Source: Saccoglossus kowalevskii (taxonomy: Eukaryota > Hemichordata > Enteropneusta > Harrimaniidae). From it: 24,797 bases of DNA. The notes beneath the pieces are model-generated. The model worked only from the letters and a program-made list of their open reading frames with translations, searched no databases and had not been told where the DNA came from. The stretch spans positions 118,461-143,257 of the forward strand of contig NW_003154742.1 in the NCBI RefSeq assembly GCF_000003605.2. Reading direction: 5' to 3'. This document shows, piece after piece, positions 6,029-24,796 of the stretch. Position 1 is the stretch's first letter; every line of letters starts with the position of its first letter. The position numbers and the translations under genes are program-made.

Positions 6029-6749
6029 ATGAACATCCGAGTACAATTGCAGATTTTGGTATGGGCTGTGATTTTTTGTACCTCTGCTGGTTTGTCTCGA
6101 AGGATCTCAGACGAGGACATTCGGGATTTGGAACTGGATTATTTCGTGCAGTCGAATGCCCAGAGTATGCAGACCATATTGGACCATTACAACGAGGTCG
6201 TAATACAATACTATTACCAGGACCTAGCTAACATTGCAACAGCTCTGGCCAATAGTGACGATTTTTTGAATAACATTAATAGCAACGGTACTGCGTATGC
6301 TAAGAAGACTGACACGGCGGAAGACGATGACGATCTACTATGTTTACCTACAGAATTTCCATACCCTGATCCAATAACCGATATATGCCTCGATTTGCCA
6401 GCACGAAATATATGTGTGATAGTAAAAATTGGTTTTATATCTATTGGTCCTATTTGCATACCGCTCAGCACTTTACTGCCCTTGCTATTGCCCAATCTAT
6501 TACCGCTAATACTTCCCCGGTTACTGCCTATGCTGCTGCCCAGAGACTGTCCATTTGATCTACCGTTCCCACTCAGTGAAAGTATAGCTGGAAAGATGAA
6601 CCCTTTCGAAGACTTACCTTTCGATTTACCGATAGAGCTCCCAGAAATACCGGACACAGTTGCAAACATCTCCGCCGACTGTTTCTTCACAGAGATAAAA
6701 TTTCTATTAGATCTTGTATGTACACCACGACAATTTTATGCGTTTGAAA
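6029..6749 (+). other. Gene 1 exon 1: signal peptide and long N-terminal extension
   Basis: This exon encodes residues 1-240, against 92 in the matching exon of gene 2. It starts with a hydrophobic leader (LVWAVIFCTSAG), then an acidic helical-looking stretch with one NGT glycosylation site and a DDDD run. A cysteine-containing segment follows (Cys near PTEFPY, DICLDLP, NICVIVK, GPICIPL), then the Leu-Leu-Pro repeat and a stretch rich in D/E-L-P units (PFDLP, EDLPFDLP, IELPEIP). It should lie outside the cytosol, as expected for NRF N-termini. It ends phase 1 at GAAA|GTAAGT, exactly like gene 2. I recognise no known domain in residues 25-240. Confidence 0.8.
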
Positions 6750-9700
6750 GTAAGTGAATTCTTTTGTTTATTCTTAGTGATCTCATTTATCCGAATGCAT
6801 AATTGTATCTACATTTCCCGGATGATTAAACCTGGGATATATTGCTCGATAATATATTTGTACAGTCAAAGCGAATGGGAGTTTTAATTTGCATAAAATA
6901 AACACACGAAAAGCTCTCAAAACTGAAGCGTTAAATTCATAATGTGTCACTTCAATTATCACAGATTTGATTTGAAAACATTAGCTTCTGAAGCTAAGCA
7001 TGGTTGTTTACGCACGCAATCACGTGATAAGATCTTTAAACTCTCCGTTAACGAGCAACAACCTCCCTGAATGGTTTTCTGATTGAAACAAGTTGACCAA
7101 TTGGAAAGAGTGTTGTGTATATTTATGAATATTCACACTATAATATAATTATATCATTTGATAATATTCTATACATGTACTCACAAGAGTTTACTTTTTT
7201 AGTTTGTTTTTGAATTTTAAACAATCGAAGTTCAAACAAATAGAGGCTGGCTCTGATTGGACAATAAGTAGCATATGAAATTAACATATACAGTGTTTAG
7301 AGGTAGCCGTATGTTTGACGCTGTCTCAAAATTTAATGTAACCCTGGTTAAAAAAATATGCCGCGAAAACTGTTACATATTATTACGATCACGCGATGTG
7401 CTATAATATCGTGATTGAAAACTTGAACTGTAGTTTACAGCAATTAAAGTAAAAATAGACTACTTATTAATACCACGTGACCCTTTTAATTGGACCATTG
7501 GTAAATAGAACCATGTCATACTAATGTAAACAGCTGTATGCAATGAAAATTTAAATTGCCTAAGTAGTCGGTAGTTGCCCGACAATACCCAAGGTCATAA
7601 TAACAAAAATTATGACCGTGATATTTAAAAAACCTTTCTCTCATATCGATTGTATTTTTTTTTTAAAAACAGGTTCTTGTTGGCGTTCATTCTTTCACAG
7701 ACTTTGATTGTATGATAAAAAACAACATACTCAAATTTGCCTTTGATTTATTTCCAGAATAAAATTAAAAAAAACATTAGTGCAATACATGCAATTGTAT
7801 GCAAATTGCCTTTTCTTCTGCATTATATTTTACCATTCCCTTTTTCTTCAACGGGGGACAATTTTGCACAAGTCGCATGTGCTGATTTATTTTGGTTGAC
7901 ACGCACTATATAATTTTGTTTTCGACAGTGTTCGACGCCATGGGAAAATTGCCAAGTGGACTTCTCAAAGGAGACCTCCGATGGTTGGGATCGTTTCTAG
8001 AATGCCGAGAGGTATTGAATGTGAACGCCAGTAGGTTATCATCTGTTGACACCTTCGACGGAAAATACTGTCTAACCAAATGGACCATTGCAAGTGTGAG
8101 TTCATATCCCGATATTTAAATGTCAAATACATACTTAATCAGGAGTGAGTTTCGGGTATAATTCTGAACATTTTATATGTGTCATGTATATTATTGTTTA
8201 ATTTATACCCACAGTAACTGGCACAATACCACCATTATAATCTTCACTAGTAACACTGTTAACATTATTCCGTTATTTATATAATTACACCAACACAAAA
8301 ACACGGTACTCTTTTATCGAAATCAAAGATGGCCGCCGCAAAGTTACCAAGACGGATTCATCATTATGGTAATTACCAGTGACTTAAAAATTAAAAATTA
8401 AATCAACTTTACTTTGCAGGATGACGATGATGGAGTGAATTTGCCACTGCAAATTGGAGTATGTATGCCGAGTGTATGTAGTGACCAAGATGTAAGCAAC
8501 ATGATGGAACTAGGTAGTGTACCACACATATAATAGCATTAACCAACAATCTATATAAGCCGCAATGTGAAAACTACAGGTAATGAAATAATCAAAAATT
8601 TAATTATTTTAATCTATTATCGTTATAGGTATTGGCCTGCTCTTCAGCGATGGTCTCAATTTGGACTGGGTGTACTGTAACTATGACGACCCGCTTGATG
8701 CAGGTGCTATAACAACGTTGTAAGTAGTATACACCGCAAGACTAGAATAGTCAACATACACACAGACATATTAGCATGATCTCTGTTTATTAACAATATG
8801 CTCCCCTCCACAGGGTCATTATTTTTGTTATCATAGCACTGTGCATTATCGGGGCTATTGTCGATTACTTTGTCAAGAGACGTTACGAAAAGCTTATGCC
8901 AAGACCTAACCAAATATCAACCATGGATCCGTCGCTATCATTCCATAATTATGGGAATGACATCGAGATGTCGGATGCCGTCAAGGACGTCGGAACAGAT
9001 ACATCAGTCGACAAGCAAGACGAAAACAAGAAAGCAGATGTTATACATGAAAAAAAGATAGAGGCTGCAGACGATCTTACCTACGTAAACGTAATAGAGG
9101 AATATACAACTACAGAAGTCGAAAAAACTAAAAAAATGGGTATTTATTTAGTTTTCTGTTCGTCTATTGTCAGCAGTGTTTTGTTTGTTGATTTATTTTA
9201 TTTAGTTGAAGTGAAACAAGCACATGCAAATCTTTTCAAAGATAATTCAATTTCTTGTGTGCAACGCGGGTTATAACGCCAGTACAGGTATTGATGCCTA
9301 TAACTGAAATAAGCAGTTTTAGTTGTTATCTTTTTTACCTAGTTTTATATATATTCGATAAGTTATGCTTTGTCAATATTCGCTATCCCATATTGGTTCT
9401 AAATATTATCAGAAATCCACTTGTACTGACGATACAATGTTTGACAGGTCATTGTTTTCTTCAGGGCAGTTTTGTTTCCCGTTCCTGTTTTCATATTAGA
9501 AGTAAAACTCTTACCATTGTAATTTTTAGTTTAACTTGTATCAATGCAATTATCTATTCAGTTTTAATGAATGTAATTATACAGATTCAATTCTTATCAC
9601 AAAGTAGGCTTATTTTGTGTAGTTACATCCTTGCAGTCATATTGACTGATGTAACAGGGCAAAATATCATTGGTGTTGACATAAACTTGTTGTCACCCCT

Positions 9701-12700
9701 CCAAGATGTGAATTACCTAAGGGATTATAACTGTGGTTACATGAAAGGAATGCCCAAAGTTCCATGTCCCTGTTTTTCAATGTCTAAGGTTCTTCTCGCC
9801 AGAAAATGATTGTTAGTCTCAATATACAAAAATGGTGTATCATAAAATAACCACAGTAACTTACACTATCTATTGCTTGACTATAATTATTCGATGTGTT
9901 TAACAGCTTTAGGAACCACCCAACGACGTCTCTATATAGATCACGCCACTGAATTTTAGGCCGCCCCTGTATTTATTTCATGACTATGTACACTGTGTGA
10001 CAGTGCTCCTACGCGTACGTCGGTTCTCTAACTAATTATCGTTCTCTTTGTAGCTCGCAAGTTGAACCCGATCCGAGCGTTTTCAGGTTTTATCAATGGA
10101 TCCAAGTTGCTTAGCACAGAGTACAACGGAGGTGAAAAGACTATCAGTGCTATACATGGCATGCGGGTCTTAACGTTATGGTGGGTCATCTACCAAATGG
10201 CGTACGAAACGTCATACGAAGTATTACGTAAGTTGGGCATGTCAATAGCGAATTTTGATTTGTCATTCGTCGTAGAGCACGTGATTGAATTTTGCGTAAA
10301 CAAACAACTTATTTTACACGCTTCGGTATAAGTCACACGGGACCCATAACGCTTTGTGGTGACTGTGTACGGCTCTGTGTGGGAATGTTTTTTACAGAGT
10401 CGGGATTAAACTCTGCCACGTCTACGGCATATAGCGCGAAATTTATCGATTTCGATTTTCACGGACATGGAATCTTCTAAAAAAAAAAACTTCCGCGAAA
10501 TGCTGAATGCTCATGTGTATCCTTTGATTTGCCAAGTGAACATTTCAAAATTATTTTAGCGACCTGACCTATTATTAGGTGATCGTGGTACACGTGGTAA
10601 ATTCAAGTAATTTAAAAAATAGACACATTTTTGTGTTCGATTGAAATACGTTTACTTCAGCATATGATACAGGTGCTTGTAATTAATACAGTATTTTTTT
10701 AAGCGTTTTTCTGTGTTGCAGTGCGGTGAATGCATGTAGTGAGCACTTAACTAAAGCTGTGTCAGGCTGTTTATTATATATAATAAACAGTTCGGCTGGC
10801 GGTGATCCTCTGTTATCTATGTACAGTGAACCGACCTATTTAGTGTGGGCACGTAACAGATTAGTGGTTGAACAAACTCTATTGATATAAACATTTACGC
10901 GACAAATAGACAATGACATTTTTTTAGTGGATTACGTATCGTTGCACGATAGGATGGGCCGCCAAATAACTAACTTTACTGACCTCAAAACTCTTTCAGT
11001 GAATTGTCTGTGCGTGCCTCGAAAAAAACCGCAGTTACAAACCGACAATAGCAGCAATACGTTAGACCTGAAGCAGGGATAGCATTGCTCACCAATTCAA
11101 TGTTTCGCTGCTAACTATATTATGGAAACATCCTTTTACCCTTATTTCACGTGTTATTTGTTTACCAACATTTGTATTCATTACCCTGGCCTAAAACATA
11201 CACAAAGAGCACACAAATATAGTATTTCTATATATTATTATAATTAATAATATATTGCACTTTGACCTCTCATAGAAAACCCATTAGACCTGTTGTGGAT
11301 TGCAGAGAGGCTCTTCTCCCAGGCGTTAGGTAACGGCTCGTTTGCCACTGACACGTTTTTTGTTATCAGGTAAGCATTTTACATGGCGTTGTTATCCCCC
11401 AATACAGTAGCAATGACCTCGATTTACTCTTGTCCTATCCATCACGATGTCTGTCCGTAGGTTGAGCTAAATGATTCCGTCAACTTGGCGAATTTGCTAT
11501 GATAGTAAATCAATATGAACATTCATTTGACAATGAAACACGTGTTCAGTGTGTACCCAGCCTAACGTTAGACGTACTAATCCTCTAGTCATATTAACCT
11601 TTGTTTTATATTCATTGGCAGCGGGTTTCTAATTACATACCTAGCGCTAAAGGAAATCGATGAAAATGGCCGCGTAAATTGGTTAAAATATTATTTTCAC
11701 CGTGTTTGGAGGTAAGTATGTTCTTTCAATCTCATAAAGTGACCAATGTCAATTCTACAATGCTGGTTCCGTTCAACCATCCACTATTCAATGCATCTTA
11801 CATTTCTGTGACAGATTCTGGCCGGCGTACATAGTCATTTTGCTGCAATACATGTTTCTATTGCCGTACATGTGCGGCGGACCTATGCAGTACATCGCTA
11901 AGGATTATGCTGAACCGTGTTATTCTTACTGGTGGACCAACGTGTTATTCATCAACAATCTGTACCCATACAACGACAGTCTTCGGTCGAGGTGCATGCC
12001 TTGGACTTGGTATATCGCCTGCGTCATGCAATTTTATATTATTAGTCCACTCATCATTCTAGTGTTGAAGTGGTAAGTTATTATTTTTGAAAACAAAACA
12101 GCATGATAATACTTTCCAATAAACCAATTTCCAGCTCTGTCAACAAAAAGTGGGAGAAAACATTTTAGGACGAAGGGAACAACGATTGATGGAAAGATAG
12201 TGTCACTCAGTGTCCTAATCCATTTTTTTTGAATAATAATGTGACGTTATTCACTGTCATTTACAAATGTGTATGTTTTTTTTTATAACAGGAGAGAATC
12301 TATCGGATTGGTTGTAATGGGATTATTGTGTGCTATGGATTTCACTTGTACCGCCCTTATATCTACGTATTACGGCCTAACTGCTAGCCCAGGCCAATCG
12401 TGAGTGCGCTTATAATGATGATCGATCGTTTGATATTTTCAACAACGTTGCACGTTACTCTTATTTTGTATGTAAAAAAATCTGAAAGTGATGATTTTTT
12501 TTTGAATTCATATCGTTACAGTCGATTCAACGACAAAGCCGATGACAACCCGTTCGGTGATTATATTGTAGCCAAGCCACATACGAGAATTGCCACGTAC
12601 ATACTCGGGATGTTTCTAGCGTATGTTTTGATTAAACATGAAGAGGGGAAATTCAGAATCAATAAGGTGTGTTGCCATTTGTGGGATGAATGACATTTCC

Positions 12701-14954
12701 ACAGTTTTTATTTCGAGAATGTACCTGCAAAGTAATTGGCATTCAAAGACAAAATTAAATCCTCCGTCCTTTAACATACAAAGCCGGATTGAGTGCATAT
12801 TCTGCAGTAATTTTTCCCCATCTCAATATTTTATGTAATATATGTATCAGGAGTCAGGTGCCAATTGTAGTGTAGATGTAATTCAACTTTGGGTGTGCAA
12901 CAAACGAGAAAGTTTGCATAAATAACTGATATATAAGGTCATTCACCGTAATTAACTTCATAAATATAAATATGGCAATAATCGGCGCCCACTTTCCTAA
13001 ATTATGAATTTAGGGTATTGCTTGCTTGCTATATTATGAGCTCTTTATCACTGCAATGTACACGGTTGCAAGATGCTGAACTAATCAAACGAATTACGAC
13101 ACACCGAGAAGCTTACGTGAACATTTCGTCGATTTGGAGCAACATGTCTACATTAGGTTAATGCACACAGTCGACTTACCAATAAATTAACACTGTTATC
13201 AATAAAACCCAACTGTGTTAACCCGATAATCAAGCCTATGTTCATGATGCTGCGCTGATTTGAACCAATTGAAAAGACGAATATTACGCATATTTACTAG
13301 TTGTCCGTATCAAAACCATCAGCGTAATTGCCTATTAGAGAAAGTAATTGTTCCATTGAGCAAATAATCAGATATGTTCTAGCTATGTTTTTAGTTCAAG
13401 ACCAACCACAATCCTATATACTCACCAACATCCTGAAATATTAAAATTTAACACATTGTCTTTCATATTGCAGCTATAAATAAGTTATGACAGCGTAATC
13501 AAAGTATGTGTTACTGAATTTTAATCTTTTTTTCAGCCTATCAGTATAACGTGCTGGATCATATCAACGTTCTTTGGTTTTGCTATTGTGTATTGCACCT
13601 ACAGTAGTTACCATGAGCCAGAGTGGTCGCAGGCACTGACGGTGTTTTATTTAACAGTGAGCCGATTTACATTCGGCATAGCCATAGCGTGGGTTATATT
13701 TGCTTGCGCCACCGAACATGGAGGTGAGTAGAGAAACAAGGAAGGATCGGATGAAGTATCGAGTAATATAGAATGAATAGTCTCGTCAAAATACCGTGAA
13801 AGCAATGTCGTCCAATGGGAGAACTGTGTTTGTTTGTGAAATTGTTCGTCATTTATAAAAAAAAAACTCTCAAAAATATCATTTTTACTGACTGACGGAC
13901 GGACAGATCGAAACGCAAGTGACGCTATGAACGGTTTTTACTTTCACAATTGCGTCACTGAAGTAAAACTTTAAACAAACGTCACACAGCTGGAAGTTTC
14001 CTTGCACGACACTCACGCCTATATTTATGATTGCAGGTTTGGCAAATAAGTTCTTATCATGGAATTTTTGGGTTTCACTTAGTCGGATGTCATTCTGTAC
14101 GTATTTAGTGTTTCCCATCTGGATGGCTTTCTTATTACTCAATAATCACGTACAGCCGTACGTGTCGGACTTGAATATGGTGAGTAAATATTCAACAAAC
14201 AAACATGCATATATATATGTGTATTTTGAGCTATAAAAACTTTAGACACCAGAGACAATTTTGCACAAAATAAATTGGTGTATTTTGTTCATAAATCGAA
14301 ACCAGTAGCCGACAGAAAATTAAGCCCATTGGAACCAAAATTTACAAATAGTATATAGAAGTGATAAAAATGTACTGAATGTTACAGCAACATTTTGGCG
14401 AGTATTTGTTTAAAATATGAGTACAAACTGATTAGCACCCATATTGAATGCAGTGACAGTATTGTGAAATGTAAACACAAACTATCATTCAGTTTAATGC
14501 TCTTTCAACATTTGTTTTTCTGTCTCCTTGTCCGTACACACGCGTGTGTGCATAGTTGTTGCTAACAACGGAATTAAGACCAATTCTGCAAAGGAATTGA
14601 TTCGTTATTGTTTCGTTTATGTTAGTTTCTTTATACCGAACGATTAAAGCGGGAGGGTCGTCACCTGCGCACGCGCGGGAATTGAGTCCCAAGCGATGAT
14701 AACAACACAAGCTAAGAACGGAAGGGCTCATGGGCAGACGCTTGTTTGTAAATAATGACACGCTATGACCACCTGACGCATGCGTAGGCTTTAAATAACT
14801 CGCTTTCATTCACTTTCAGATGTACATGTTTGTGGCTTATCTCGGCGTCAGCTTCGCTATCGGATTCTTTTTAGCCATGCTTGTTGAGCGTCCAGCCATA
14901 CAAATAGAAAGACTTATGTTCAGGAAGGGACTGGATGAAGACTACCCGTTTTAA
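6029..14954 (+). CDS. NRF-6-like acyltransferase-3 family membrane protein (gene 1, complete)
   Basis: Fourteen coding exons: 6029-6749, 7929-8095, 8420-8513, 8629-8719, 8814-9139, 10054-10227, 11276-11369, 11622-11711, 11815-12072, 12292-12399, 12522-12666, 13537-13723, 14037-14179, 14820-14954. All introns are GT-AG; the joined frame is 910 codons and a TAA stop. Seen: signal peptide (residues 1-20), long extension, cysteine-containing NRF domain (about 241-350), one membrane helix, a long loop, then an acyltransferase-3 domain with about ten helices and the family motifs DTFFVISGFLITY, WWTNVLFINN, SPLI, KPHTR and SLSRMSFCTYL. Family knowledge: C. elegans nrf-6 and ndg-4 affect fluoxetine response and lipid/yolk transport; acyltransferase-3 proteins move acyl groups across membranes. 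Odd: the motif His is Met515, so catalysis is doubtful. The frame is open, so I do not call it a pseudogene. Exon borders are inferred from splice sites, frame and paralogue agreement; the start is the first in-frame ATG before a good signal peptide. Confidence 0.9.
6473..6544 (+). repeat. Six-fold Leu-Leu-Pro-X tetrapeptide repeat (residues 149-172)
   Basis: Six consecutive 12-base units encode LLPL, LLPN, LLPL, ILPR, LLPM and LLPR without interruption. Leu codons differ between units (TTA, CTG, CTA, TTG, CTT) and Pro codons vary between CCC, CCG and CCT. The periodicity is therefore clearer in protein than in DNA, pointing to an old repeat kept at the protein level rather than a fresh microsatellite expansion. 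Gene 2 has nothing like it. Confidence 0.85.
6750..7928 (+). other. Gene 1 intron 1
   Basis: AT-rich intron of 1179 bases with GTAAGT donor and a TTTCGACAG acceptor. I see no exon, RNA gene or clear mobile element inside it. Its length (gene 2's equivalent is 615 bases) leaves room for enhancers that cannot be read from the sequence. Confidence 0.75.
7929..8719 (+). other. Gene 1 exons 2-4: NRF domain
   Basis: Exons 7929-8095, 8420-8513 and 8629-8719 encode residues 241-357, the extracytosolic NRF domain. Diagnostic pieces are FDAMGKLPSGLLKGDLRWLG with Cys266, the FDGKYC stretch with Cys288, GVCMPSVCS with Cys311 and Cys316, and DWVYC with Cys344 just before the first internal membrane helix. 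Gene 2 aligns through all of these, with cysteines at 118, 136, 161, 166 and 200. In this family the cysteines are expected to form disulfides. NVNAS and FDGK sit in the variable loop between the first two cysteines. Confidence 0.88.
8814..9139 (+). other. Gene 1 exon 5: first internal membrane helix and long charged cytosolic loop
   Basis: The exon opens with a hydrophobic helix (VIIFVIIALCIIGAIVDYF, ending at residue 377) followed by the positive stretch VKRRYEK, which fits a cytosolic exit. About 90 residues of polar, Lys/Glu/Asp/Thr-rich sequence follow (for example DVGTDTSVDKQDENKK) up to KKM. The matching exon of gene 2 is 173 bases against 326 here, so the loop is roughly 50 residues longer in gene 1. 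The many Ser/Thr residues beside acidic ones would suit phosphorylation, which is inference. Confidence 0.82.
9140..10053 (+). other. Gene 1 intron 5 with an unexplained long open frame
   Basis: The intron runs from donor GTATTT to acceptor CTCTTTGTAG. Two frames inside it are notable. Reading straight through the exon 5 donor adds about 45 codons with a hydrophobic stretch (YLVFCSSIVSSVLFVDLFYL) before a stop at 9274. A separate plus-strand frame is open from 9246 to 9806; its first ATG is at 9294 and it would encode 171 mostly hydrophobic residues. I recognise no family in it. T-rich DNA favours hydrophobic codons and fewer stops, so it may be accidental. Confidence 0.45.
10054..10227 (+). 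other. Gene 1 exon 6: start of acyltransferase-3 domain with altered R-X10-H motif
   Basis: Encodes residues 468-524. The pre-domain linker leads into ISAIHGMRVLTLWWVIYQMA. Family proteins here read like G-(I/L)-R-V-L-S-x-x-W-V-x-x-G-H-T, so Arg504 (10164-10166) is the conserved Arg and the residue 11 positions later should be His. In this gene it is Met515, codon ATG at 10197-10199, and the preceding Gly is Gln514. The exon ends phase 1 at TTAC|GTAAGT, the same position and phase as in gene 2. Confidence 0.85.
10228..11275 (+). other. Gene 1 intron 6 with two AT-rich palindromes
   Basis: An intron of 1048 bases. It holds a perfect 24-base palindrome at 10767-10790 (CTGTTTATTATA and its complement) and a hairpin at 11231-11254 (TATATTATTA, loop TAAT, TAATAATATA), the latter only about 20 bases before the acceptor. 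A run of ten A residues lies near 10481. Short open frames just after exon 6 look accidental. I see no gene or clear transposon here. Confidence 0.6.
11276..12072 (+). other. Gene 1 exons 7-9: acyltransferase-3 core with RXXR and WWxN motifs
   Basis: Exons 11276-11369, 11622-11711 and 11815-12072 encode residues 525-671. In order: GNGSFATDTFFVISGFLITY (membrane helix), FHRVWRFWPAY carrying the RXXR motif (Arg583, Arg586), a helix ending LLPYMCGGP, CYSYWWTNVLFINNLYPY, then CMPWTWYIACVMQFYIISP entering the next helix. RXXR and WWxN are family hallmarks and are kept. The residue before MQF, usually Asp or another polar residue in this family, is Val656 (GTC at 12023-12025). In gene 2 the CMPW part lies beyond an extra intron outside the window. 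Confidence 0.87.
12667..13536 (+). other. Gene 1 intron 11
   Basis: An 870-base intron with donor GTGTGT and acceptor CTTTTTTTCAG. It contains a small perfect hairpin, CCTAAATT-ATG-AATTTAGG, at 12996-13014. I see nothing else of note. Confidence 0.65.
14180..14819 (+). other. Gene 1 intron 13
   Basis: A 640-base intron with donor GTGAGT and acceptor CACTTTCAG. It holds a short alternating purine-pyrimidine palindrome (CACACGCGTGTG near 14537) within an otherwise unremarkable sequence. The minus-strand open frame across 14489-14809 has no recognisable product. Confidence 0.6.
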
Positions 14955-15050
14955 AGTGCAATTCGGATGCTATGATTTTGTGATGTTGTTATAATGTGTA
15001 CGAACACGTCTTATATACTTACAACAGTGCTCGACTATTATGACTGTAAT

Positions 15051-15072
15051 AACAACAACAACAACAACAACA
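15051..15072 (+). repeat. (AAC)n microsatellite
   Basis: Seven consecutive AAC units start about 97 bases after the gene 1 stop codon, so they probably lie in its 3' UTR. Confidence 0.9.
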
Positions 15073-15155
15073 CATACAGAATAAGTGTAGATACAGGGGC
15101 ACTGCATGGGATCTGAATGTAATTATTAAGTATTGAAGTAAATAATTACATATTT

Positions 15156-15161
15156 AATAAA
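15156..15161 (+). terminator. Putative polyadenylation signal of gene 1
   Basis: An AATAAA hexamer lies about 200 bases downstream of the TAA stop, on the coding strand, at a normal 3' UTR distance. A second candidate (AATAAAA near 16420) is much farther away. The cleavage site and GT-rich downstream element are not evident. Confidence 0.5.
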
Positions 15162-16605
15162 GAGAAAAACACAAACGGCCCGGGATATATTGTGGCACAG
15201 GTTCAAAGATTTACTTTTTAAAATACATCGTACCCTTCAATAATTGGTGCATAATAAATGAGCTAAATGCATAAAATTTAAATATTTTGATCGGGCACTC
15301 ATGACCTTTTATTTTATTTTATATATAAACTTATCGTACTCTTGTATATATATTTTTGACACAAATTTTGTATAATTGACATTTGCAATCCGAGACTGGT
15401 TTTATTTTTACTGTTGAACATATCTACATTTGTTTTTACGTTGTTTTTATTATTTTTAGATATTGCATCCTGATAAAACACAAAGTGTTTAACTATGATC
15501 ATACCATCATTTTATCAAGTTGCAATATAAAACAAATGATTTAAATTTGCTTAAAACATACCTGCATTTATCTACATCATTTGTTTAATTAATTCACCGT
15601 GTTCAACAATAAACTGCGAAATAGCTGATAAAAATACCACTGTTGTAAATAGCACTTATTTTGCTCGTGTTTATTTTTCATATACTTAGTATTCTTAAGT
15701 TGGAGCAACACAATCTGCAATGCTATTAAATCAGACGCGCTTTATTACCATATTCCTTTGTCATGGATGAGTAATACAGTTTAACATCAAGCCTGGATTA
15801 GTGTCAACTGTTAAGGTCTCATATCACAATTGAATTTCTCATAGACGACAATGTGAAACATATTTGACGTATAGAGATAGGTTCTGGGTCAAGTACCAAC
15901 ATTTTACAGAATTTAAGCGATTTGTCTAGCTTTTTTCAAATCCAATGGTAAACATCGTCAATACAAATACTTCATCAATATACTAGTATTGCACAAGTTT
16001 ACCCAGATGTTATTTACGCTACATCAATCCACCATTTCAAAACCTGCCGGGTTTCGCTAAAATTCCAATCACAACCCTATGGCTAGCTTACTCTACTGAG
16101 TAGTATCATATGAAATAGAACAGTTGGAATTTGAGTATGTCACCCCGTGCAAAAACTTGAACTGTTGACATCTGCGTTCATCATAGAGTTAGAACCCTTG
16201 TTTACAGTGCAAAATTGATCTTGATCGATGTTTGGTATTGCATTCAAAGTTTGTTTTGTAACCTTTAAATTTATTCATGATACAATCGTTGTAAATTTGC
16301 GATTTATTTTGTGTTCTATACTTTATGTCGGCCCGTTGATAGAATTTATAGTTCATCATGAACCATATTACCTGTTTCAATTGTTTTAAGTTTTGTGTTT
16401 AGAACGTTTTGCGTAACAATAAAATATGTTTCTGTGAACTTGTATATTCGTTACTATTTACACTATCTAGTAGTGAGTGTTGTCTAGAAATACGTCCCAC
16501 ATACACGGGAACACGTCATGTTCGATGAAGACTTAGTCACATTTATATAGCGTGGGATCCAGTCAGAGTCTAAAATGTGACGTTGCAAAAGTGTGTGATA
16601 CTTGA

Positions 16606-16633
16606 TTTTCTAATTATGATGCTAATTAGAAAA
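16606..16633. repeat. Perfect 11-bp stem hairpin
   Basis: TTTTCTAATTA and TAATTAGAAAA flank a six-base loop, TGATGC. The position is intergenic and the function unknown. It is short enough to be chance in AT-rich DNA, though the stem is perfect. Confidence 0.55.
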
Positions 16634-17938
16634 CAATAATAAGAACACGGCGTCGCTCGTCGAACACATGTTATTGAAAATACTTATCTACGTTCCATCA
16701 GGCTCTGGTACACACAGTTAGGTCGATAGACAGTGTGGAACTAATACAAAGATGGCAAAACTCTTACCTATGATGTGTTACCTGGGTGAAAATTACAAAC
16801 ATAAAGAAATCGTGAAGTTACAATATGAGCATAGATATTACATCATTTGTCGTAGACAATGGTCTGGCATATTATTCACATATCACCGACAAACCACCCA
16901 TCATGTATATGTAGGGGCCTGATCTTTCTTGTAACACATGTGTAACACCTGACACACCTAAGTATTAATTTGCCAGATTGGCTTTGATAACATAAACCTT
17001 ATTAGATTTGAGTAACTGTTTATATTAAGTTGATTGATACAACATAGTTCCTCCTCGACATAATCTTGGTCAAAATCTTGGCATTGATGTTGAAAAATGT
17101 AGCTTCAATGAAAAGATCTTAATTGAAACTGTATTTGAAGAAAAGACAAAGCAACAATTATTGATCATCTTACAATTATAACGAGACGAAGTTCGCAAAC
17201 CATCCATTGATTCAAACTACCTGAATAACTCACAAGTGCTCTGCCGAGATCGCCGAAACATTTTTGGATTGGATTTGGTTAAAACTAGAAATAAACACAG
17301 ACAAACCATAATAGAGGGAGGCAAGGGGGGGTAGCTGGTACAGTTTTACGGGAAATAAAAAGGGCTTTTTACAATTTACAAGGGAAAAAAATACGTTTTT
17401 ACAGTTTACAGTGTTAAAAATGGAACATTGAATGGTCCGAAGAGCTCTCCGACTCAAATTCTCTGCCATTACTGTGCCGTGTGTATAGACGCATGCGCAT
17501 ACTCCGGCTAATGTAACTTAAAATAGTTTCCATACACTAATTTGCCAAACCAAACAATTCCAATATATGGCCTTGCCTCTTCGGCTCATACCATCTTCCG
17601 TAAACGTCTTGCATCACCGAGTCACTACTACACTTGTGTGGATTGGCCTATTGTTTAGGCCGTACGTTAGATTCACGAAAATAACGTTCACTGTTTTCTC
17701 GTTTCAAACCAGTCATTTGTATTCATATTGAAATCTACAACCTCACACTTGTGGTCATATTCAAGTAAGAACGATTCTTTAATATGCCAGTGGTTAGGAA
17801 AACAAGTGCGAGGAATCACTATTGAAAATGAGGGCAAATGGTCGTAATCCTCCCCACTCTGTTATCACATACATCACGAACGCTGACTGTTATTAACAAC
17901 GCCATATTCTCATTTGTCGACCGGTAGCACGCACAGCC

Positions 17939-17958
17939 CTGTTATCAGACGATAACAG
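17939..17958. repeat. Short perfect stem-loop
   Basis: CTGTTATC and GATAACAG flank the four-base loop AGAC. It contains paired GATAA sites in opposite orientation, the core recognised by GATA-type factors, so it could be regulatory. It lies about 1.5 kb upstream of gene 2. Confidence 0.45.
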
Positions 17959-18772
17959 AGCAAACATACTAACAAGATTGTGTGAGTCATCAACATTCAA
18001 AGTTTCCTTACATTTGTATGGATCGTTCAAACAACAAATCTACCATTATTCTTTCAGGTTAAGAAATACTGCTCGCTGTTACGTGAAAAGTGACTTATGT
18101 GCAAGTGCTCGCATATCGTTTGCATTGAGTTTCTATAGGAAACTAAAATTAACATAGGCGACTACGATGCGCTACTCATTCTGTATATTTCTTTTTTTCT
18201 CAAAGCCCGTATATTCATTTTTTTCGACAGTTGCGTGTTCCATCCAGCGGTAATGCAGCGGTACAATTTACATCATACAGGTGGTGAAACTAATGTCGAG
18301 GTAAAGGTTACATAGCTCAGTGGATGTGTTTCGCGGGAGAAAATAGAACACGAGTAGCGCAGCACAAAAACAAGTCTCGTGGTTCTGTCGCTTTGAACGA
18401 GATCTCGGCGGAAATTTGCGTTTAATGTAAATTGGTTGTTGTGTTCAATTCTTGTGAATGTTTGGCACAGCACACACTGGCACATGTGTAAAACAACTCT
18501 CATATGCAATGTAGGTGTCTTATGGTGTAAATTTATTTTAAGAAAAACAAAGAAATGTAACTAAATTTAATTTGTTTAATTCTGATGGTGATTAATATAA
18601 CACCAATAACGAATCTCCCAAAGCGGCATAATATATTCGGAGAAGGGCCTAGCTGCGATAATGTGTTCGGTTCGGTTCTCATTGTTTCACCATAGACCAC
18701 TTCTAGTCATTCAATTTGTCGGTGCGGGAATTCATTGTTGTTTACATAATATGGTCATTATTGAGCACCGGC

Positions 18773-18817
18773 TCGTTCTTGCCCTAATAGCAAACAGGGC
18801 ATTCGGATAAAGAACGA
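18773..18817. repeat. Nested inverted repeat upstream of gene 2
   Basis: TCGTTCTT directly followed by GCCCT pairs with AGGGC and, after a nine-base bulge, AAGAACGA. The result is a 13-bp stem with one bulge and a ten-base loop. It lies about 680 bases before the gene 2 ATG. It may be a structured transcript or a small element remnant. Confidence 0.4.
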
Positions 18818-19494
18818 ACAATGGGGCGACGATCTATTGCAATGTAATATACAATATAGCATTGCATTCATTATCACAATTCCTGAACTTTGATTAATTA
18901 GGTCGGGTTAGGTCTGCCGGATCAGATTCAGGTCAGATAAATTGTCAGATGTCAAATAGACCACCCTTTCAAGTTTACCGCTGTTGTATTTGCTTAACTG
19001 TACTTAAATACTAAAGTGCATGTTTTGGTATGGGGTGGATCATGATGCAGCAATATACCACGAGATTTTTTGATTTCACTGGTATTGGATTTGATCAGGT
19101 GATTATGTCAAATATTGCCCATAAACAATATTTGTTTACCATGATAAATGCATGTTTATCGGGGATATAACTATCGGAGTCGATCTCTCCTTACCATCAC
19201 CAATCTTGAATAAACAGATAATATTGCACAGTTGTCGTATCGAGTATTGGTACACGTCAGTACACACGCAGTCGTTAAGGATCCGTTTAAAACATTGCTA
19301 CCTCTAAATGTACTTTTTCAATCTTCTGGTCAGGTCACGCACCATTGCATCATTCATGCATGATCCGTTAAATTATCAAATTTGGGTCACTGCCAGTCGC
19401 TGAATCTTTATTCATTTGGTACTCAGTAAATTCTGCAATTGTTACATGAGGCACTTCACAAGGCAAAGCACGAAGCAACAAAAATCATATTGCG

Positions 19495-19771
19495 ATGATG
19501 GTCTGTTATATATTACTGCTGTTCTTGGTCAGTGCTTGTACCGCATTAGCCTCTGTAAATGGACGACAAGCACGGGAGAGCCAGATAAGAAACACACTGT
19601 TGGCAACATTTGGAAGTTCAGATTTGTACAACCACAGACGATTAGAAGATCTATCGCGTTGTCAAGAAAATTGTGAAAATAACGAGACCAGCGGGATCTC
19701 ACCGAAGTGTTATTGTGACGTTTGCCAGTACGAACGGGGTCTGGGCAATAAGGAGTCCTATGCGATGGAAA
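19495..19771 (+). other. Gene 2 exon 1: signal peptide and Cys-rich N-terminus
   Basis: Encodes residues 1-92. After the leader, a polar region contains five cysteines in 22 residues (56, 60, 72, 74, 77; CQENC and CYCDVC) and an NET glycosylation site. Gene 1 has no equivalent CxC/CxxC cluster, so the two genes differ completely before the NRF domain. The exon ends phase 1 at GAAA|GTAAGT. Confidence 0.8.
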
Positions 19772-22700
19772 GTAAGTGTTGGCAACTTTTAATTTATACT
19801 CCTTAGGGTCGATTAGAGAAACATTACGTAAAATTGAAACTATGTATTTACCATGACAATGTTTTAATCACTTATTTTACACCCAACTATCTTATAATGC
19901 CGCAACTTTGAAAACTGAAATACACTAAATCTCCTCCTTGACAAACAACAATCGTTTAAGTTCAAACCATTGCCAAATCAAGGACACGCATGGCGATAAG
20001 GTTTGCTTGTATAATCTCACACGTGGCTGGCGTTTATATTTTAGTTGCTCTTCCTCCCCGGTCACTGACCTCTCGTTATCATTTGGATTGAAATAAGATT
20101 CCTGCATTGCTAAGAGTACGCGTCCTTATTTAGTCTCTGAATAGGTGCATATTTGTCGCAATGATTACTTTAGAATATGGGGCCTTGTGGTGCTGGTGGA
20201 ACACTCATATCAAGGGTTGCCCCCTGAAAAGGTATCCAGAAACACGATAGTAACAATCGCATACGTACGACAGTTGTACATAATGTATGTGTTCATTCTT
20301 ATATACACGATTTTCTGAGGGCGTTACTTGAATCGTGAGCATTCATTATTTCACCATCATGAATATTCTTTGCATTACTTTGCAAGTGTTTGATGCAATG
20401 GGAAGATTTCCTAGTGGACTACTCAAGGCTAATTTCAAATGGATCGGTACCCATACAGAATGTATACGTGCCACAGATAGGGAGCTGAATATAACTAATT
20501 TCAAAGCTAAGTACTGCTTAGCGTTATATACAATCCCAGTTAAGGTATGACAAAATATTTGCCGGCTGTCTAAGTTGATCTTAAATTAATTTAAACTTGT
20601 GTTATTGTTGTTTTGTTTTGTTTTCGTAACTGTCAAACATTTATTTTCTCTAGAACGCGACTATTACCTTATTAGAAGAAGCATTATCGATGGCTCTCTG
20701 CGTACCTAACACGTGCAGTAAAGACGACGTACGACTATTGATCCAAAAAGGTAAACGATACGCCAACATTTCGATTTTTTAACCAATGCGGAAATCTACG
20801 AAAAAAACAATAATCTCAAAGCAGAAAATAAGTACATTAGATAAGACGTCTTCAATATAATACTAGTGTTTATATATGACTGGTATGATGCACAGAAATT
20901 ATTGATTTTTCAGACTTGTTATCCCGTCCACGTATTCATAGCATCATGCACAATGCGTTTGATTTTTCGCTTGTACATTGTAATGAAAGTAAAGATCTTT
21001 CAGTTGGAGCGATTATAATGATGTGAGTAAATAATTATTTTTTCTAACATGATTTTAAAATTCCCCCACCACCTCTCATATATGTATACAACTAATAGTC
21101 GTAAGTTCATTGTAGATGCATATCTGCGGTACTGGGTGTACTGGTATTGTCAGCGTCAGGATTCGAATATTACAACTTGCAAAGGACAACAAAAACACTC
21201 ACAGATTTAAGTAATACTGGAATTGAAGAGACAGCTTACAATGTATCGGGTGATCAAAATACGGGGCTAAAAGTAGAGAACGTCGCCAGTAAGTAAGAAA
21301 TACACACATTCTGTATAATAATTGCAAAAAAAAAAAACTAACAAGTTTGCATAAGTATTCATGCAATTCAAAAGCATTTCTGGTCCCAAAACATGTTTCT
21401 GAGAAGAAATCACCGAGTGTTCAGACTGAAGTCCTCCCATTCTCTGTCAGGGAAATTGATCCTATACTATTTAAACGTTGATTTCCTCTTTCAGATGTGT
21501 GGAAGCAGCTTCTGTCATGTTTTTCCGTGGTATCTAACGGTCCTTATATCCTGTCAGTCAATATAAAAGACCCCGGCGAAGACTCAATGTCGGTACTATA
21601 CGGTCTACGTGTACTCTCACTGTGGTGGATGCTTTTAGGACAAACGTTTTTTTTTCATTATAAATTCATGTGTGAGGATAGTTTGTATTCAAAATTAAGC
21701 CTTTTTCACTTAAATTATTTTTACTCTTACACGATGAGATTTGTTCTGCTGGTGTTCATTTTTATTCCATTTCGATATATTTGGGTTTTTTTTTCATTTT
21801 TTTTTACAAATGGTTGACCCTCTTTCTGAAGAATAACCTGCCAAGTTGTTTTCTTAATCGATGTAGGGTTTGCTTGGCAATTGTAACTTCTCTTTATAAA
21901 AACTGATAAATGAAAAGTGCACAATTAATATTGTTTGAATTGAAACCATCGACCAGTATACCATATATGCCATATAATATATTCATTAATGTAACATGTT
22001 TGAGTGATGAATGTATTGATCTAACTTCCAATAATATAATTCGTGTCTATTTGCAGATAATTTCTTTGACATCAGGGTTATCTTAGATCGGATAATCTCA
22101 CAAGCTATGGTAAATTATCGCTACGCCGAGGACACATTCTTCATATTAAGGTTGGTTTTTGATTCTGAATATGGTAAGCATAAATAAAGTTCGAGGACTT
22201 TTCTGAGATATAACGACATTTTATTGCAAATAGATGGGGGAAAGAGTCCAGGAAAGCAGGTCACCTCTGACTCGAAATTAACCACTAAAACCGTAGATAG
22301 ACATTCTTAGAAAAGTATATTTTTATGAAATTCAGTGAGTCATTGTCAAAAATTCTGCACAAATTTCGTCCCTGAAAATTTAGGCCATGCCAGATCGTAT
22401 TTCACATCGCCCGTGGAGTTGTAACTCTGAGACCGAATTCAGCATTTGTGTCTTTTTAAAGAAATTCGATTTGATACTTGTTGTGATCTTACTAAGGACA
22501 CTTGTCGGAAACAGCACATTACTTTTATTTGCTAACACTTTCGTATAAAAGATTGTTACACTGACACACTCATTTTACTACGTTACGCCATACAAATAGT
22601 ATACTAAATCAATACAGATATTCATTGAACTCCTGAGCATTATTCGACCTTATTTTCAAATTCGGAAACTATAATAATTTTTAATAACCGGACACAGATA

Positions 22701-24530
22701 TGTAAAATGTAGTCCGCACTGCTTCCTCTTAAGACAACTCAACCAAAATGACAAAATTAATTATGTAAAATATTTAAAGATAAGTTAAGGATCACAATCA
22801 AAGCTATTTTCAAAGATGACTGGACGTTCATTATCATCGACATATGGTTTATTTCCGTACTAGGGAAATACTAAGATTCAGTTTGCCAACGAACCACATC
22901 ATTGCGCCTGCTGGCAGATTTGCTAAAGGAGAATGTGATGCTACAGATAGTTAGAGAATTTTTGTTTGGCAAAAGCGGCGATCTCTAAAATGAGAGACAA
23001 CCAATCCGCTTTTTACTCAAAAATTTGTGTCAGCGGGAGGAAGATATTCCAGATACTGTGCACCGCTGCGTACATGTAGACAATGTCCTATCGTCACTAG
23101 TTGAAAGACTGATTTCCCCTGCAGGGTTAAACATTCAGCTGATAAACATTTAGACATACATTTTTTTTATTGATGACTGGTACAAAATCAGCTATTAGTT
23201 CATGTAAGAAACTCAATAACTTTTTACGTTTTATAGTAAGCCAATAATTTTGTAATCCCATACACAGGAGCTAGAATTCCTGGTTATGAGGTTAAACTCA
23301 CACCCATATCCAGTTAGAGACCTGGCTAGTGTACTATGCTCCAGTAAAGTTGAAGACCAGTTCACCCTCTACATATGCCTTTTTCGTACTATAGTACTGG
23401 TCGCTGCTTTTTATACAAGCAGCGTCTGCAAAAACGCCTCATTAGGGTGTTTATTGACTAGAGCATCAGTCTAGTACTATATATCAGCTGAAATATCCAA
23501 CCGCCAAAAGTTGTATAGAAGCTTCCTGCTTTCTAGAAAGAGTATTCGTCCACTCAAAACAGAATTCTAAGCAGATTCAAGAAAAAATATTTGCTACTTG
23601 TAATTTTGTCAGAATTTGTATAGAAGGACTTAGTACAGGCTACCTGCCGCTGTGGTGATTTAATTCACTTTAAACATTTCTTTTATTACGAGTATTGTAA
23701 TTCCAAATCTGAACCAAGATTAAGTAATACCCAAAGGCTTCAATCGACATCTCATTATTGATTGACTGCAGATAAAATGGCAGAACCTTGACCTTGAAAA
23801 TGATCTTGGTGAGTCTGATCTTTTCCCTAACACGAACGAGATGATATTTTGGTAAATTCAGAAATTGAAATGTGTTCTTGGTTTTACATACAGTGGATTA
23901 CTGATCACATACTATCCATTATCGAGACTTCACGCCAATGGTAAGGAAAACTGGGTATATTTCTATCTTCATCGGTTATGGAGGTAAGATCACCACGTTG
24001 CTTTGACGTATCTAGATTGGGACAATATTTAGTTGAGTTACATATTTCTATACAATGAACATATAAATATAGTGAAATTTAGAATATTCAAACATATAGT
24101 AGAACATTATTTGTGTGAGATATCCACAATCTTACGTGGTAACGAGTACGAATCTATATATACTCACAGTGAGATGATGATGTGTGGACTGCAATGCACA
24201 CAGCCTATTATCTGTGATATAAGAGTCAAAATATAGAAACTTCGGATAAACTTACCATATTTAGCTGTAATCCCATTATATGTATGGCTTTGGGTGAATA
24301 CAAAGCTGATATTTTATCTTATTTAACTCATGTACGTGTTTATCACTTACAGAATTTCAATTCCATACTTTCTGGCATTCTTTGCTTATGTGTGCCTTAT
24401 AGAGTACATGTGTACTGGAGCACTGTCTTACTACATTGAAGAGAACCTAAGTGCATGTCATGACACGTGGTGGAGCTATGTGTTATATATAAATAATTTA
24501 TATCCGTACCCAGGGTCTGTTAGAGGAGGG
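19495..24530 (+). CDS. NRF-6-like acyltransferase-3 family membrane protein (gene 2, 3' end outside window)
   Basis: Nine exons: 19495-19771, 20387-20544, 20654-20750, 20914-21022, 21116-21288, 21495-21671, 22057-22150, 23894-23983, 24353-24530, giving 451 codons in one open frame before an intron that runs off the window. All introns are GT-AG; the intron 7 donor, GTTGGT, is weaker than the rest. Seen: signal peptide (LLLFLVSACTALA), Cys-rich N-terminus, NRF domain (MFDAMGRFPSGLLK onward), one helix, a short loop and the first part of the acyltransferase-3 domain (GLRVLSLWWMLLGQT, AEDTFFILSGLLITY, HRLWR, WWSYVLYINNLYPY). It is a tandem paralogue of gene 1, with shared intron positions but low identity outside motifs. 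The motif His is Gln321. ATG codons at 19495 and 19498 are both possible starts. The missing part should encode the remaining C-terminal helices. Confidence 0.88.
20387..21022 (+). other. Gene 2 exons 2-4: NRF domain
   Basis: Exons 20387-20544, 20654-20750 and 20914-21022 encode residues 93-213. Key pieces are FDAMGRFPSGLLKANFKWIG with Cys118, FKAKYC with Cys136, ALCVPNTCS with Cys161 and Cys166, and FSLVHC with Cys200. NIT and NAT are potential glycosylation sites. Exon lengths (158, 97, 109) are close to gene 1's (167, 94, 91) and intron phases match. Confidence 0.87.
21116..21671 (+). other. Gene 2 exons 5-6: membrane helix, short loop and altered R-X10-H motif
   Basis: Exon 21116-21288 encodes a helix (ICISAVLGVLVLSASG) and a short polar loop. 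Exon 21495-21671 encodes VWKQLLSCFSVVSNG and the first acyltransferase-3 helix. Arg310 (21608-21610) is the conserved Arg, and the position 11 residues on, normally His, is Gln321 (CAA, 21641-21643) within LLGQT. The neighbouring Gly and Thr of the usual GHT are kept, so the alignment is unambiguous. The exon must end at ATGT|GTGAGG because the reading frame continues only as AT-rich, Phe-rich sequence. Confidence 0.85.
22057..24530 (+). other. Gene 2 exons 7-9: acyltransferase-3 core, RXXR kept
   Basis: Exons 22057-22150 (94 nt) and 23894-23983 (90 nt) have exactly the same lengths as their gene 1 counterparts. They encode AEDTFFILSGLLITY and YLHRLWR with Arg389 and Arg392. Exon 24353-24530 encodes the following helix, CHDTWWSYVLYINNLYPY and SVRGG, then meets a GTAAGT donor at 24531 with no matching intron in gene 1. 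Exon 8 is separated from exon 7 by 1743 bases. Confidence 0.82.
22151..23893 (+). other. Gene 2 intron 7
   Basis: At 1743 bases this is the longest complete intron in the window; the gene 1 equivalent is 252 bases. It is AT-rich with short accidental frames. A compact hairpin-rich patch lies around 23380-23480, including CGCTGCT and AGCAGCG flanking TTTTATACA, the palindromic GTACTATAGTAC, and GACTAGA paired with TCTAGT. This may be an inserted element responsible for part of the extra length, but no clear termini were found. Confidence 0.5.

Positions 24531-24686: not shown

Positions 24687-24796
<110 letters not shown>

Follow-up and report, generated by a model that had tools for sequence, protein, structure and literature searches.

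Does a gene that keeps the fold of a membrane acyltransferase, with Met where the catalytic-type His is expected, encode an enzyme, a protein maintained for another role or nothing of use at all? The question is raised by gene 1, which lies in a window of 24,797 nucleotides from the hemichordate Saccoglossus kowalevskii (positions 118,461 to 143,257 of the forward strand of contig NW_003154742.1, assembly GCF_000003605.2; contig C4410 of the 572-Mb genome in what follows). Gene 1 encodes a membrane protein with an NRF domain and an acyltransferase-3 (AT3) domain, and the His concerned belongs to the R-X10-H motif of transmembrane helix 1 (TMH1). Its loss is wider than one residue in one gene, as it extends to a clade of three tandem genes (genes 1, 2 and 3). 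Judged by sequence, the odds are slightly better than even (about 0.55) that these genes encode maintained proteins which have kept the acyl-coenzyme A (acyl-CoA) channel and lost canonical transfer, that is, pseudo-acyltransferases with a binding, gating or partner role.

The TMH1 His is missing from three tandem genes

The features on which this section rests are as follows (window coordinates).

6029-14954, plus strand: gene 1, NRF and AT3-domain membrane protein, 14 exons, 910 amino acids
10054-10227, plus strand: exon 6 of gene 1, encoding TMH1; R-X10-H position with Arg504, Gln514 and Met515
19495-24530, plus strand: gene 2, 5′ part only as the window ends, nine exons; Arg at 21608-21610, Gln at 21641-21643 in place of His

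The R-X10-H motif of NRF-6-type AT3 acyltransferases is absent from gene 1, where Arg504 (CGG, 10164-10166) is followed at exactly the eleventh position (R+11) by Met515 (ATG, 10197-10199). The residue before the Met is Gln514 (CAA, 10194-10196), in a column that holds Gly in 7 of the 8 other paralogue rows and Phe in the eighth. A first-pass annotation of the window, made from the sequence alone, had described the Arg, the Met at R+11 and the Gln before it, and the codons agree with it. From R504 through M515 exon 6 aligns without a gap to four paralogues, and there is no His between residues 516 and 551.

The genome was searched with TM1 protein queries, TM1 denoting the exon that encodes this helix. 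The best query gave 23 matches, eight of which were set aside as one dispersed repeat, leaving 15. As the search ranks only the best candidates, this count is a lower bound: at least 15 TM1 exons of the gene 1 family exist, on contigs C4410 (5), C3087 (5), and C2919, C4241, C962, C3900 and C2442 (1 each). The gene 1 query returned 5 matches and the query of the C2919 type, the most distant, 11, all inside the same 15. His stands at R+11 in 12 of the 15 exons. The exceptions are gene 1 (Met), gene 2 (Gln) and gene 3 (Gln, beyond the window), and these three His-less copies are exactly the plus-strand tandem neighbours. The other two copies on C4410, H1 (near 86 kb) and H2 (near 97 kb), lie on the minus strand and keep the His.

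The same column was His in 6/6 other aligned paralogues, in all four plasmid relatives found with a gene 1 query and in 80/80 bacterial AT3 proteins. The bacterial set is the best 80 of 421 AT3 proteins found with a Sagittula AT3 query; 78 of the 80 loci contain the search letters EEQFYLFF, and the R+11 site lies outside those letters.

A maximum-likelihood tree of nine paralogues, from which five trait columns had been removed, placed genes 1, 2 and 3 in one clade (support 97/99) with genes 2 and 3 as sisters. The clade was recovered in a second tree to which six bacterial rows had been added and in which the trait columns were retained (support 95/99). Pairs that include genes 1 to 3 are 31-47% identical. 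Since the split of genes 1 and 3, the branch to gene 1 has a length of 1.05 changes per column and that to gene 3 of 0.63 plus 0.61. On the simplest reading of these sequences, the TMH1 His was lost once, in the common ancestor of genes 1 to 3, and the site then became Gln or Met. Separate and very recent losses are unlikely because genes 1 and 3 also share the loss of an acid in TMH4.

Other catalytic and channel sites

Three further sites in gene 1 bear on the question.

12023-12025, plus strand: Val656 (GTC) where the DMQ / VEEQ motif has its conserved Asp/Glu, start of TMH4
14111-14113, plus strand: Phe844 (TTT), replacing the His of YLxH ('SYH') in TMH9
12580-12582, plus strand: His728 (CAT), in KPHTR, two residues before an invariant Arg, start of TMH6

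The TMH4 acid is Val in gene 1 and Leu in gene 3, and falls beyond the readable part of gene 2. Outside these genes it is Asp in 10/10 DMQ exons read (eight, plus those of C2919 and C4241) and Glu in the four plasmid relatives. Gene 3 retains the TMH9 His, as do the four other paralogues reaching that column and 79/79 bacterial rows reaching it, so within genes 1 and 3 its loss is confined to gene 1. Three of the four plasmid relatives have it, and the motif was not found in the fourth (L068). The SYH motif, taken as that of TMH9, is incomplete in gene 1: S837 is kept, with F838 and F844 replacing the Tyr and the His. No other paralogue read has a counterpart of His728; Trp or Tyr stands there instead.

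Many other sites are unchanged in gene 1, namely R504, F552, G557, R583, R586, W651, Q658, R730, G737, S837, Y841 and E889. Both the FFxISG motif of TMH2 (FFVISG, 552-557) and the RXXR motif of TMH3 (R583-V-W-R586) are present, and S837 and Y841 form a conserved SxxxY. Around the acyl-CoA site of the TmAT superfamily, the conserved residues are reported to lie in TMH1 and TMH3 (Arg in each), TMH2 (Phe), TMH6 (Gly) and TMH9 (Tyr) (PMC12423673; for OafB, PMC9833829).

Departures were counted at conserved sites, defined by an identity of 95% or more across the bacterial set and by retention in the remaining His-bearing paralogues, the tested row being excluded, with conservative exchanges allowed and at least three readable rows required (numbering of the bacterial protein L085). 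There were 5 departures at 28 sites in gene 1 (H23M, V36T, E141V, G257A, H294F), 4 at 28 in gene 3 (L11F, H23Q, V36E, E141L) and 3 at 14 in gene 2 (H23Q, V36E, P94A). For the His-bearing copies the counts were 0/28 in each of H1, H2 and C3087a, 0/22 in C962 and 1/20 in C2442; the C2919 copy is taken up below.

Gene model and domains

The exons of gene 1 are listed here.

6029-6749, 7929-8095, 8420-8513, 8629-8719, 8814-9139, 10054-10227, 11276-11369, plus strand: exons 1 to 7
11622-11711, 11815-12072, 12292-12399, 12522-12666, 13537-13723, 14037-14179, 14820-14954, plus strand: exons 8 to 14

The model was built by hand from the DNA. All 13 introns are GT-AG and the 910 codons contain no internal stop, in line with the earlier description of 14 exons in an open frame with RXXR and WWxN kept. 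Spliced alignment recovered an identical protein, although the query was gene 1 itself and the result tests the aligner more than the model. Pfam matches were the NRF domain (PF20146) at residues 234-325 (69.7 bits, curated cut-off 27) and Acyl_transf_3 (PF01757) at 499-885 (62.2 bits, curated cut-off 31), and no others. Gene 3 and H2 scored 61.4 and 63.2 bits to Acyl_transf_3. The AT3 part of gene 3 is 35% identical to that of gene 1, and its AT3 exons are free of stops and resemble those of H1 and H2 in length. Because stops are penalised by the aligner, an open frame in gene 3 outside the AT3 exons carries little weight.

Exon 1 contains a Leu/Pro-rich repeat at about 6470-6550, LLPLLLPNLLPLILPRLLPMLLPRD, which falls in the first 233 residues, N-terminal to the NRF domain, and has no Pfam match. 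The counterpart of exon 9 (258 nt) in gene 3, H1 and H2 is a pair of exons (172-181 and 80 nt), and an intron has apparently been lost from gene 1 within this region.

The AT3 part of gene 1 had no match among the Protein Data Bank (PDB) sequences up to E 10, and a profile of 56 bacterial AT3 proteins had none there up to E 1. A structure was predicted for one bacterial relative only; the first Foldseek list for it held no match at E <= 0.001, with TM scores of about 0.1-0.2, and at a second look HGSNAT and GWT1 were among the matches. No match was found in a Pfam family search of the genome itself, which ignores introns, and no relative in a first scan of genome contigs with an animal alignment.

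Other members and repeats of the family

The exons of gene 2 within the window are as follows.

19495-19771, 20387-20544, 20654-20750, 20914-21022, 21116-21288, 21495-21671, 22057-22150, 23894-23983, 24353-24530, plus strand: exons of gene 2

At the start of TMH2, the conserved Asp of the DxFF motif is immediately preceded by Glu in genes 2 and 3 (AED/VED; exon 22057-22150; L012). The position of this Glu is taken by Val in nearly all bacterial rows and in the His-bearing paralogues, and by Thr in gene 1. Two of the family copies, C2919:284410-284547 (L046) and C4241:11679-11816 (L045), are near-identical, with TM1 exons 96% identical, and may be a recent duplicate or uncollapsed alleles.

The eight matches excluded from the TM1 count (L058-L065) had 20-24 residues matched at E 0.39-0.89. 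They belong to one dispersed repeat found on eight contigs, the copies being 90-99% alike to L060, and one frame of it reads RVLSSWWAIIAHTYSS, which resembles TM1 and includes a His. The likeness is probably due to chance, the alternative being that the repeat has captured a piece of an exon. At the end of the window there is a long AT dinucleotide run (24690-24795), after which comes the N stretch of the genome.

Interpretation

Gene 1 is classed here, by sequence, as a His-less AT3-domain homologue and not as a working AT3 acyltransferase. Catalytic residues have gone from a recognisable domain, and the gene is intact, with a 910-residue frame and a loss that is clade-wide; both of these are expected of a pseudoenzyme. 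In the NRF-6-type lineage of genes 1 to 3, the catalytic site on the extracytoplasmic side of the AT3 fold would have disappeared once, in the common ancestor, the proteins being maintained ever since. The sequences show R-X10-M or R-X10-Q where R-X10-H stood, with the TMH4 acid gone from the two readable genes and, in gene 1, the TMH9 His as well, while the channel-lining acyl-CoA residues and the NRF domain of gene 1 are still there. A pore of ten transmembrane helices would presumably still be made and would bind a CoA thioester or lipid, His-assisted acyl transfer being no longer carried out. The role would then most likely be that of a non-catalytic partner, binder or regulator, perhaps of the His-bearing tandem paralogues. 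A more specific proposal, offered tentatively, is that genes 1 to 3 form a natural His-less AT3 branch that would sense, gate or carry acyl-CoA or lipid, controlling or feeding those paralogues.

The importance of the His is well illustrated by bacterial enzymes. In OafA, H25 is invariant in 31/31 proteins, as are three other residues, and H25A leaves 0.33% of activity (PMC7448272); in OacB, H58 is needed (PMC8952252). The claim of the first-pass annotation that acyl transfer requires the Arg/His pair is true of these two proteins and does not extend to the whole superfamily, as GWT1 is reported to lack the catalytic His (PMC12423673) and human HGSNAT is numbered D244, R247, N258 and H269 (PMC11357348), which puts Asn258 at R+11 and the catalytic His eleven residues further on.

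The main rival to the pseudoenzyme reading starts from those two proteins. It supposes that genes 1 to 3 are active by altered chemistry, with the Gln of genes 2 and 3 holding the thioester as proposed for Asn258 of HGSNAT, and transfer being completed by another residue or by direct attack of an acceptor held by the conserved TMH2 Asp, much as the fold relative GWT1 manages without the catalytic His. This argument by analogy is possible, if somewhat doubtful. The Asn at R+11 of HGSNAT and the reported absence of the His in GWT1 speak for it; however, gene 1 has Met, which carries no amide, and its lack of His from 516 to 551, the region of HGSNAT H269, means that the HGSNAT pattern, an Asn at R+11 followed one loop later by a catalytic His, is not found. 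Moreover, the TMH4 acid is lost too, and OafA and OacB need the His. A replacement closer to home would be His728, at the start of TMH6, substituting for the lost residue. Being confined to gene 1, with Trp or Tyr in its place in the other paralogues read, and standing beside the invariant Arg, by helix order probably on the same membrane side as the TMH1 His, it is a candidate by position, but gene 3 has undergone the same loss with Tyr at that place, and gene 1 lacks the TMH4 acid and TMH9 His besides. Substitution by His728 is accordingly judged rather improbable from the alignment. The first-pass annotation had proposed a maintained pseudo-acyltransferase or one with altered chemistry. This stands as a pair, not half by half, given the intact gene and the loss throughout the clade.

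A different view is that genes 1 to 3 are recently relaxed or dying copies, whose function was lost not long ago and in which stops have yet to accumulate. The end branches are indeed long in gene 1 (1.05 changes per column) and gene 3 (0.61) against H1 (0.13) and H2 (0.31), yet the His-bearing C2919 copy reaches 0.93; the readable part of gene 2 stops short of its end. Against decay, the clade-wide loss is most simply older than the split of genes 1 and 3, now at 35% identity, the 910 codons of gene 1 are open, and the AT3 exons of gene 3 are likewise open and similar in length to their H1 and H2 counterparts. Decay was also simulated by random substitution of the coding bases of gene 1 (1000 runs per level), leniently, as insertions and deletions were excluded. 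Stop-free copies made up 29% of runs at 1% substitution, 12% at 2%, 0.3% at 5% and 0% at 10%, so that neutral substitution of 5% would leave only 0.3% of copies intact. Most likely, to judge by the sequences, the frame of gene 1 has been kept by selection since the His was lost, and we consider dying copies unlikely. The earlier view that this is not a dead gene is borne out by the intact frame and splice sites, the loss common to the clade and the open AT3 part of gene 3. Least probable, and hardly to be expected, is an artefact in which a wrong exon was chosen or the His lies on an alternative exon. The gene 1 model was computed from DNA, which leaves room for this, but exon 6 is gap-free against four paralogues over the site, and when nine TM1 queries were run with tblastn against introns 5 and 6 and positions 14955-19494, the matches were short and attributable to chance (best E 1.4). 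Introns 5 and 6 were also tested for phase-compatible AG...GT cassettes; there were 260, of which 39 proved open, and no cassette encoded R-X10-H. A His-bearing alternative exon, which had been named at the outset as one finding that would overturn the annotation, was thus looked for in introns 5 and 6 and none was found.

Several points weigh against taking genes 1 to 3 as pseudo-acyltransferases. HGSNAT and GWT1 suggest, by analogy, that the fold can work without a His at exactly R+11. E188 of OacB is dispensable and tolerates Ala (PMC8952252), and its spacing from W183 and F191-Y192 is that of Val656 from W651 and F659-Y660 (W+5), so an enzyme may survive the loss of this acid alone. H320 of OacB, in TM X and perhaps the equivalent of the TMH9 His, likewise tolerates Ala (PMC8952252). 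The Glu of TMH4 in 79/79 aligned bacterial rows is a count produced by the construction of the search: the query letters make conservation of E141, Q143 and their neighbours expected, and the bacterial count was dropped as evidence because 78 of the 80 loci hold those letters. The odds given above are unchanged by this bias, because the paralogues alone carry the point about the TMH4 acid. The C2919 copy, which bears the His, departs at 4 of 32 conserved sites (F40L, N113H, F144L, S287N) and also has its long branch of 0.93, which implies that near-invariant sites are not frozen even with the His present. Finally, the genome is N from 143258 to 151335, straight after the window, which makes the second half of gene 2 unreadable, and the linker and ends of gene 3 are unresolved in the spliced model.

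A natural clade of this kind, lacking the His but with its CoA-site residues kept, would make acyl-CoA binding separable from acyl transfer in the AT3 fold. Across AT3 proteins the TMH1 His has been called absolutely conserved (PMC9833829), which together with the need for it in OafA and OacB makes a natural loss notable. No AT3 pseudoenzyme was among the literature matches listed, which is no claim of absence from print. The clade would also offer a handle on the function of NRF-6/Drop-dead proteins in animals, whose targets were given as unknown in a 2022 review (PMC9558356). For genes such as these, annotation as an acyltransferase from the Pfam domain alone is unsafe.

Comparison with known systems

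One close likeness is to the NRF-6 / NDG-4 / Drop-dead type, the OAC proteins of C. elegans, which share with gene 1 the NRF and AT3 domains in the same order, the arrangement as a tandem multigene family, and the RXXR and FFxISG motifs. Of the 59 OAC proteins of C. elegans, 15 carry NRF domains, and every one of the 59 is reported to retain a catalytic His within an SYH motif (PMC12799122), which from the flanking letters quoted there we read as the TMH9 motif. In contrast, gene 1 has neither the TMH1 nor the TMH9 His.

Relatives from the class of the bacterial AT3 O-acetyltransferases (OafA, OafB, OacB and OatA) align across the AT3 domain of gene 1. They have in common with it the TMH1 Arg, RXXR, FFxISG, SxxxY and the Glu after TMH10; they differ in that R-X10-H, called absolutely conserved in the bacterial proteins (PMC9833829), is R-X10-M in gene 1. 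HGSNAT and GWT1/PIGW, of the TmAT superfamily, belong to different sequence families from gene 1, whose only Pfam matches are those to NRF and Acyl_transf_3, and the His that HGSNAT carries in the next loop (H269) has no equivalent in gene 1.
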